Origin: an actinobacterium SCGC AAA028-A23
GTDB lineage: Bacteria; Actinomycetota; Actinomycetes; Nanopelagicales; Nanopelagicaceae
Assembly: GCA_000378905.1 (NCBI GenBank)
Contig: KB900604.1
Coordinates: 1 to 37,940, forward strand
DNA: 37,940 nt
Direction of reading: 5' to 3'
Both the position numbers and the translations under genes were made by a program. The notes under the pieces are model-generated. The model saw only the letters and a program-made list of their open reading frames with translations, ran no database searches and was not told where the DNA came from. Each line of letters begins with the position of its first letter. The first letter of the stretch is position 1. Positions 1-2,380 of the stretch are shown here, piece after piece.

Positions 1-95
1 ATTTCTTACTTGCCGGAATTCTATTCTTCCAAGTATTAATTGGAGTTGATCCACTACCTAGGAAAATTCCACACCTTGTGAAAATAATAATTATC
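1..95. repeat. Left arm of an exact 95-bp inverted repeat (partner 896-990)
   Basis: Bases 1-95 read as the exact reverse complement of 896-990. The match stops at 96, where the two sides diverge (TTTGC against CAGCT). The arm lies inside the copD-ctaG reading frame on both strands, so it is duplicated coding sequence rather than a terminal repeat of a transposon. The left arm begins at base 1, so its outer limit cannot be seen. Confidence 0.97.
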
Positions 96-431
96 TTTGC
101 AGCTATGAGCATTCATGCATTCTTCTCAATCTCAGTCATGTCTGCTTCAACATTGCTAGACAATGGTTACTTTGCATTACTGGAAAGGCCATGGGCAACA
201 GATTTACTTGCTGATCAAAAACTGGGTGGGTCAGTTGGTTGGGCGATGGGTGAGATTCCTATCTTGTTGGCTTTGCTTGCCGTGTTTCTGCAGTGGGTTA
301 AACATGACAAGAATGAGGCCTCACGAATAGACCGTGCGGCAGATCGAGCCGCGGCTATGGGCGAAGATGATGAATTAGCCCAATACAACCAATATCTGGC
401 CCAGTTAAACCGTAGAGATAACCGCGAATAG
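1..431 (+). CDS. C-terminal fragment of CopD/CtaG copper-resistance and cytochrome oxidase assembly protein
   Basis: The frame is open from the left edge and ends at TAG 429-431; it has no genuine start here. The first visible residues (FLLAGILFFQVLIGVDPLP) are identical to the end of the minus-strand gene at 896-2380, after which this copy continues with the proper family C-terminus: further hydrophobic helices and a charged cytosolic tail rich in Asp, Glu and Arg. Joining the minus-strand codons 1-495 to the 111 codons from base 96 onward gives a protein of about 606 residues, normal for the actinobacterial CopD-CtaG_Cox fusion. The ATG at 78 is internal and should not be taken as a gene start. 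The acyl-CoA dehydrogenase starts 3 bases after the stop. Confidence 0.85.
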   Translation, partial: FLLAGILFFQVLIGVDPLPRKIPHLVKIIIIFAAMSIHAFFSISVMSASTLLDNGYFALLERPWATDLLADQKLGGSVGWAMGEIPILLALLAVFLQWVKHDKNEASRIDRAADRAAAMGEDDELAQYNQYLAQLNRRDNRE

Positions 432-434
432 AAT

Positions 435-900
435 ATGGCCATGTCAATGAATTCAGATATGCCGCCATTGTTTGGCCAGGAGTATCAAGCACTTCGTGAA
501 AGTGTTAGCGCACTGGCACAAAAAAAGATTGCACCATTTGCACATGATGTTGATGAAAATTCTAGATACCCACAAGAAGCAGCAGATGCACTGCAAGCAG
601 CAGGTCTTGCTGCAGCACACGTGCCAGTTGAGTTTGGTGGACAAGGTGCTGATGCTTTGGCGGCAGTAATAATCATTGAAGAGGTTGCAAGAGTATGCGG
701 TGCATCATCATTAATTCCTGCTGTAAATAAATTAGGTTCAGTTCCGGTAATGATTGCCGGCAATGATGATCAAAAGAAAAAGTATTTAACTCAACTTGCA
801 GCAGGTAAAGGTTTTTCTTACTGTCTATCTGAATCTGAAGCAGGATCTGATGCAGCGGCGATGAAAACCAAAGCTGTTAAAGATGGAGATAGCTGGATAA
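435..900 (+). CDS. Acyl-CoA dehydrogenase, N-terminal part, cut off by the inverted junction
   Basis: This is an FAD-dependent acyl-CoA dehydrogenase, which oxidises acyl-CoA to enoyl-CoA in fatty-acid or branched-chain catabolism. About 155 residues are genuine: the N-terminal helical domain and the start of the beta domain, including YCLSESEAGSDAAAMKT (about residues 135-151), close to the family LTEPxAGSD signature. The family is usually about 380 residues, so the FAD-contacting middle and the catalytic Glu region are missing. After DGDSWII the frame enters antisense copD-ctaG (901-1019), and that stretch is not dehydrogenase. ATG 435 follows the ctaG stop by 3 bases, so the two were probably co-transcribed. 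Substrate chain length cannot be judged from the fragment. Confidence 0.85.
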
Positions 901-990
901 TTATTATTTTCACAAGGTGTGGAATTTTCCTAGGTAGTGGATCAACTCCAATTAATACTTGGAAGAATAGAATTCCGGCAAGTAAGAAAT
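896..990. repeat. Right arm of the 95-bp inverted repeat and chimeric junction
   Basis: This is the reverse complement of 1-95. The transition near 896-900 joins a plus-strand acyl-CoA dehydrogenase to minus-strand copD-ctaG. Both parental sequences share a short GATAATTA-like stretch at the switch point (GGATAATTA in the dehydrogenase, AGATAATTATT in antisense ctaG). Microhomology of this kind is expected at MDA foldback chimeras or microhomology-mediated inversions. The arms are separated by about 800 bases. Confidence 0.9.
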
Positions 991-2380
991 GTATGGTCAT
1001 GAAAAAGTGCCCGCTATGACCTTGCATTAGATTTCCAAATAATGGAGTGAAATAAAGTGCAAATAAGGATCCATCAAATATTGCTAGTGCCACAACTGGA
1101 TGTGTGTAAAAGCTAGAAACCTTTGAGTGAAGTAGAGCAATGAAGGAACCACGTATTCCGCGCTCTTGTTCATTCCTTCCAACCGGTAAAGTTCTAAGCG
1201 CCAAGGTAATCGGTGCGCCAAGCACAATTCCAATTGGTGCGATCATGCCAAGCACCATGTGCGCAAGCATGTGGTTTGAAAATGCAAAGCGAGAATAAAC
1301 CCCAAGCCCACCACTAGTTGCAAAATCAATTGCAGATATTCCTAAGGCAAATGCAATTGTTCTACCCACCGGCCATTTATCTCCACGTTTACTTAAAATC
1401 ACAACACCTTTTATATACAAAGCAACAGCAAAAATTAGAAGTCCAAGTATTAAGCCATCGGCATCATATGCAAGCAGAACCCGAGTAAAAGTTGGTGGCT
1501 TTGGCATTTCAAGTCCTGTTACAAGAAGTGCTGGTGATGAAACTACTTCACGATCTGGCGGACTTACCGTTGAAAGCCAACTACCTACAAAAATCGTTGA
1601 AAACATCACAATTATTTCACCAGTAATTAATCTAAAAACTGAAGGTAGATCAGATTTTAAGATCCAACGTCGATGCAGTGCGCCAAAGCCAATTAAAGTA
1701 ATTGTCAGGAAAATCTTCAATAAGGTAATCGCACCATATTTACTAGACCAAGCTGATATGGAATCTAATCGTGTCCATGCAGTTGCGGCCCCAGTTGCTG
1801 CAACAGCTATCGCACTCCATAACGCTATTTCACTAAATCTAGGAAGGGCAATTAACTTTTGCGCCTTATCTAATTGAGTTAGACCAAATAAGCCCCCTAC
1901 CCAGAAACTTATTGCAATTACGTGAATAACTAGGGCGCCAATTGCTAAACCATGATGACCTGAGGTGCTGCCATGGCTTTGAAAAACTGGTGCAACTACC
2001 GCCACCAGTGAGATTAGTAGCGCAAGATATGTGGAAAGAATCTTTTTAAATGAAATTGAAAGTATTAGTAAAATGCCAATTATTTGAATCAAGTAACTCT
2101 TGCCGATAGAGGTTTGTGTTAAATAGGAACGAATTACTGTTAAATCAAATGAGGCTGAGATTGGCTGCTCAAGCAAATAAGCAATCTGGACTAAAATGTA
2201 AAATACAGTTGAAAGTAACCATAGAAAGCTTAAATTTTTAGCCTTCTTGATCAAAATATTGTTCGCGACCCTGCCTTTTATATCCGTGTCTAAAAATGCA
2301 ATGGCAATTATCAAGCCGATACTCAGCACAGCCGTAAGCTGCATTAAACCCTTTGAGAGGGGAGAAAGTATTTCTATCAA
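896..2380 (-). CDS. CopD/CtaG fusion: copper-resistance D domain plus cytochrome c oxidase assembly domain (C-terminus displaced)
   Basis: This polytopic membrane protein pairs an N-terminal CopD-type copper-transport domain (HVIAISFWVGGL, near residue 155) with a C-terminal CtaG_Cox domain (HMLAHMVLGMIAPIGIVLGAP, near residue 370), used in copper delivery or assembly of heme-copper oxidase. Codons 1-495 are genuine. The open frame then runs on to 818 through antisense acyl-CoA dehydrogenase, giving a false tail of about 25 residues. The genuine C-terminus is the plus-strand piece ending at 431. The first in-frame start is TTG 2380, 13 bases after the copC stop. An ATG at 2344 with AAAGGG about 4 bases upstream is an alternative start. 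The CopC neighbour supports a copper role. Confidence 0.85.

Follow-up and report, generated by a model that had tools for sequence, protein, structure and literature searches.

A 95-bp inverted repeat at one end of a genome contig, very probably an artefact of amplification and assembly

Lasken and Stockwell (2007, PMC1855051) sequenced 475 chimeras of a single-cell MDA reaction and found 85% of them to be inversions. Of these inversions, 83% joined segments less than 10 kb apart, and a complementarity of 2-21 nt was present at most junctions. Such chimeras arise when the 3' end of a displaced strand finds a priming site on another displaced strand close by, which it then copies backwards (PMC1855051). 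The stretch of DNA analyzed here, in its full length of 37,940 bp (the window), resembles these inverted chimeras (PMC1855051) in that segments less than 10 kb apart are joined in inverted orientation, with the intervening sequence skipped. The segments belong to one locus, lie 800 nt apart and have 7 nt of complementarity at the junction, a microhomology alike in size and kind to those of MDA chimeras. While the published chimeras were seen in reads (PMC1855051), the one in the window is known via a de Bruijn assembly, which would add a terminal repeat of the size of k.

De Bruijn assemblers such as SPAdes leave k-mer overlaps at contig ends, and the k-mer series 25, 55 and 95 is a SPAdes setting in use for single-cell genomes. 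The window is similar to such overlaps, since its overlap is exact, has the constant length of 95 bp and lies with one copy at a contig terminus. Unlike in the usual contig-end overlaps, however, the partner is the contig's own reverse complement, as would follow from a branch created by a foldback molecule.

The window comprises the entire contig C64 (contig KB900604.1), so that base 1 is a contig end and the first arm of the repeat is terminal. A sequence-only reading of the window had described bases 1-95 as the reverse complement of 896-990, and this holds exactly, the two arms, separated by 800 nt, being 100% reverse-complementary along all 95 nt. A chance origin is excluded, as the second-longest inverted pair within the first 4 kb measures merely 26 nt at 73%. 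What that reading termed an inverted duplication is itself best understood as an assembly product, the length of 95 bp being neither biological nor determined by the chimera but that of an assembler k-mer overlap. The features of the contig end, together with the other contigs that have comparable repeats, are listed in Table 1.

Table 1. Features at the start of the window, and contigs of the same assembly with terminal inverted repeats.
Feature	Location	Strand	Remarks
Terminal repeat arm	1..95	+	Native copD-ctaG coding sequence; probable assembler k-mer overlap
copD-ctaG C-terminal part, residues 465-606	3..431	+	Bases 3-95 repeat the internal arm
Foldback loop	96..895	+	Flipped relative to the contig body, judging from contiguity in L039 and colinear complete relatives
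Acyl-CoA dehydrogenase, N-terminal part	435..902	+	Middle and C-terminal domains missing
Internal repeat arm	896..990	-	Identical copD-ctaG stretch on the opposite strand
Microhomology GATAATT, 7 nt	896..902	+	Common to native acyl-CoA dehydrogenase and copD-ctaG; contains the chimeric junction
copD-ctaG codons 1-495	896..2380	-	Encodes CopD and the larger part of the Caa3_CtaG domain
False C-terminal tail of the acyl-CoA dehydrogenase ORF	903..1019	+	Antisense of copD-ctaG
95-bp terminal inverted repeats	C64, C62 (L127), C61 (L126), C22 (L065), C14 (L120), C9 (L049), C8 (L048), C3 (L043)
94-bp terminal inverted repeats	C17 (L057), C13 (L053)
53-bp terminal inverted repeat	C10 (L050)

The repeat interrupts a copD-ctaG gene. 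On the minus strand, the native sequence of the ORF 818-2380 ends at 896 and is followed by a false tail (818-895); the domains found in this ORF are CopD and Caa3_CtaG, the latter broken off at profile position 181 out of 237. The missing C-terminus had been placed on the plus strand, and the frame ending at 431 indeed supplies it, covering Caa3_CtaG profile positions 164-236. When the 495 codons at 2380-896 and the 111 codons at 96-428 are joined at 896/96, a product of 606 aa is obtained. This is the family length, as had been claimed for the joined gene, with uninterrupted homologues in the genus having open frames of 606-613 aa. The ctaG gene is a single unbroken frame in most genus genomes, three complete ones among them, and several of the remaining genomes have ctaG fragments that end at contig ends.

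The metagenome-derived contig CALPKA020000021.1 (L039), with approximately 97% DNA identity, served as the native reference for the window. In this contig, the reverse complement of window bases 896-1183 leads without a break into the sequence at 96-902 and further into an intact acyl-CoA dehydrogenase gene, and the arm sequence is single-copy. The same gene order was found at the DNA level in the complete, single-contig genomes G002 and G003 and in the drafts G007 and G011. Because L039 and these four genomes are all colinear across the break, the inverted junction is not native, and none of the relatives in which it was sought has it. Comparing the gene order with relatives, a check named in the sequence-only reading, hence shows both genes to be colinear and the inversion to be absent. 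L039 and another contig, CAMCXX010000001.1 (L037), both metagenome-derived, are titled Bifidobacterium breve, yet cluster by sequence with this genus, beside lake-sample records titled Actinobacteria bacterium; their organism label looks wrong.

The acyl-CoA dehydrogenase gene is affected at the same point. Its ORF (435-1019) agrees with L039 up to base 902, where the agreement stops, and contains only the N-terminal acyl-CoA dehydrogenase domain, compared to all three domains in the L039 protein of 387 aa. The rest of the gene and its downstream neighbors were sought across the assembly and are absent, as only this contig matched. Relative to L039, the dehydrogenase side is native to 902 and the ctaG side native from 896, in accordance with the earlier proposal that both genes are cut at one break with short microhomology at the switch. 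The extent of the microhomology depends on the native continuation at the junction as read from the 97%-identical L039, i.e. another strain. The junction microhomology in contig C14 is 3 nt.

Exact inverted repeats around approximately 0.8 kb look at first like an invertible segment, and a biological element with inverted ends, e.g. an invertible switch, an insertion-sequence remnant or a hairpin end, could be proposed on these grounds. The arms are, however, ordinary ctaG coding sequence, the loop consists of pieces of two conserved genes, and L039 has a single copy and no repeat. With other contig ends bearing 95-bp repeats of different sequence, we regard such an element as vanishingly improbable.

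The assembly of this genome (G000) has 833 kb in 64 contigs and an estimated completeness of 69%, figures that are compatible with a single-cell genome without proving it. Up to 6 kb at each contig end were scanned for exact matches of at least 31 bp, skipping stretches of N, and termini were counted for contigs of at least 3 kb, leaving out shorter ones (mostly N). By this approach, an exact inverted repeat within the contig was found at 11 out of 58 readable termini, with a length of 95 bp in eight cases, 94 bp in two and 53 bp in one. In two metagenome-derived relatives, which constitute a small control, none of 23 termini had such a repeat. The arms are 0.9-4.1 kb apart in the other contigs with repeats of 94-95 bp, and a 95-bp exact match also links the end of C9 with C17. 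A repeat length that is constant regardless of the sequence points to a k-mer overlap rather than biology, and from it an assembler k of 95 can be deduced. Direct 95-bp repeats were observed as well, inside C63 (3655-3749 and 5122-5216) and C16 (2082-2176 and 2954-3048) and, reaching the terminus, in C8 (2563-2657 and 14090-14184). These are probably other k-mer overlaps, derived from direct chimeras or resolved branches.

Native order was lost exactly at the repeat in all seven contigs for which matching sequence of relatives was compared, namely C64, C62, C61, C3, C8, C9 and C14 (C17, C10, C22 and C13 are outside this count). In C62, C61, C3 and C8, the two sides of the repeat adjoin in opposite orientation in complete relatives, and for C9 they do so both in complete relatives and in one with 98% identity. 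C14 follows the native order until its last 95 bp, the tail alone being inverted. The ends of C22 and C13 had no colinear DNA match in the complete relatives. Almost no DNA match to two complete genus genomes was seen over C22:1-6000 and C13:1-3700, which suggests that these ends are strain-variable regions.

A real inversion or inverted duplication in the chromosome of this cell, produced by template switching in vivo at microhomology, would be expected to give an identical assembly graph, and the GATAATT motif fits it as well. It would nevertheless need about ten independent events within a single 0.8-Mb assembly, each of them located at a contig end and almost every one with a repeat of 94-95 bp, and it would ruin a ctaG gene that is intact in relatives. 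Instead of being confined to this locus or common to relatives, the arrangement is found in no relative and has counterparts at ten other ends of the assembly. We therefore consider a real inversion very unlikely, and the sequence-only reading, which had already placed it second to an MDA foldback chimera, is supported by the assembly-wide repeat pattern. That many short-range inverted duplications arose by in vivo template switching in this lineage or cell, with amplification merely revealing them, is extremely improbable.

The inverted repeat at the start of the window is very probably a laboratory and assembly artefact, i.e. a phi29 MDA foldback followed by de Bruijn assembly at k = 95, and not biology. 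Native colinearity, the 7-nt microhomology, the short spacing and the ten additional contig ends all speak for the foldback chimera that had been suggested. Amplification by phi29/MDA, a SPAdes-type assembler and a single-cell source are what we infer for this genome. During phi29 MDA of the DNA of one cell, a nascent strand copying copD-ctaG would be displaced, and its 3' end (...AATTATC) could anneal at the GATAATT approximately 800 bp further on, within the acyl-CoA dehydrogenase gene. Backward extension of the annealed end would yield a long inverted molecule of the form flank-v-loop-v'-flank', the reverse complement of which carries the loop in the other direction. At k = 95, this molecule would appear in a de Bruijn graph as a single 95-bp vertex v, whose two exits would be the two strands of a single loop edge. 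The path of the assembler would then lead from the contig body to v', through the loop in an arbitrary orientation (here the non-native one) and to v, where it would halt, the next edge being the contig itself. The outcome would be an inverted repeat of exactly 95 bp that has one of its arms at base 1, and the apparent duplication would be the same k-mer counted on either side of a flipped 800-bp loop. Such a graph model would account for the exact length of the repeat, for its position at the terminus and for the flipping of the loop. As the loop may be entered either way, it could also explain C14, in which the loop is native and only a 95-bp false tail is present.

A pure assembler error, in which graph edges were falsely joined by read pairs with no chimeric molecule present, could be argued for, since the repeat is as long as an assembler k and the ends of contigs correspond to graph vertices. 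The native sequences have just 7 nt in common at the junction, however, which is too short for merging at k = 95 without reads crossing the junction and hence argues against such an error. The excess of inversions within 1-4 kb is moreover the spectrum of MDA chimeras, and we hold an assembler error to be highly unlikely.

The repeat in the window is an ordinary artefact, of use mainly in quality control. Three false proteins stem from this contig end, as had been foreseen for automatic annotation, and ten more ends of the assembly share the flaw, so that the genes there, too, are probably cut short or wrongly inverted. Amplified single-cell assemblies can be screened for it without reads, by asking whether the reverse complement of the terminal k bases of a contig is found again within a few kb. 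Where this is the case, truncated genes and apparent inversions at the contig end should be excluded from studies of gene content, synteny and gene loss.
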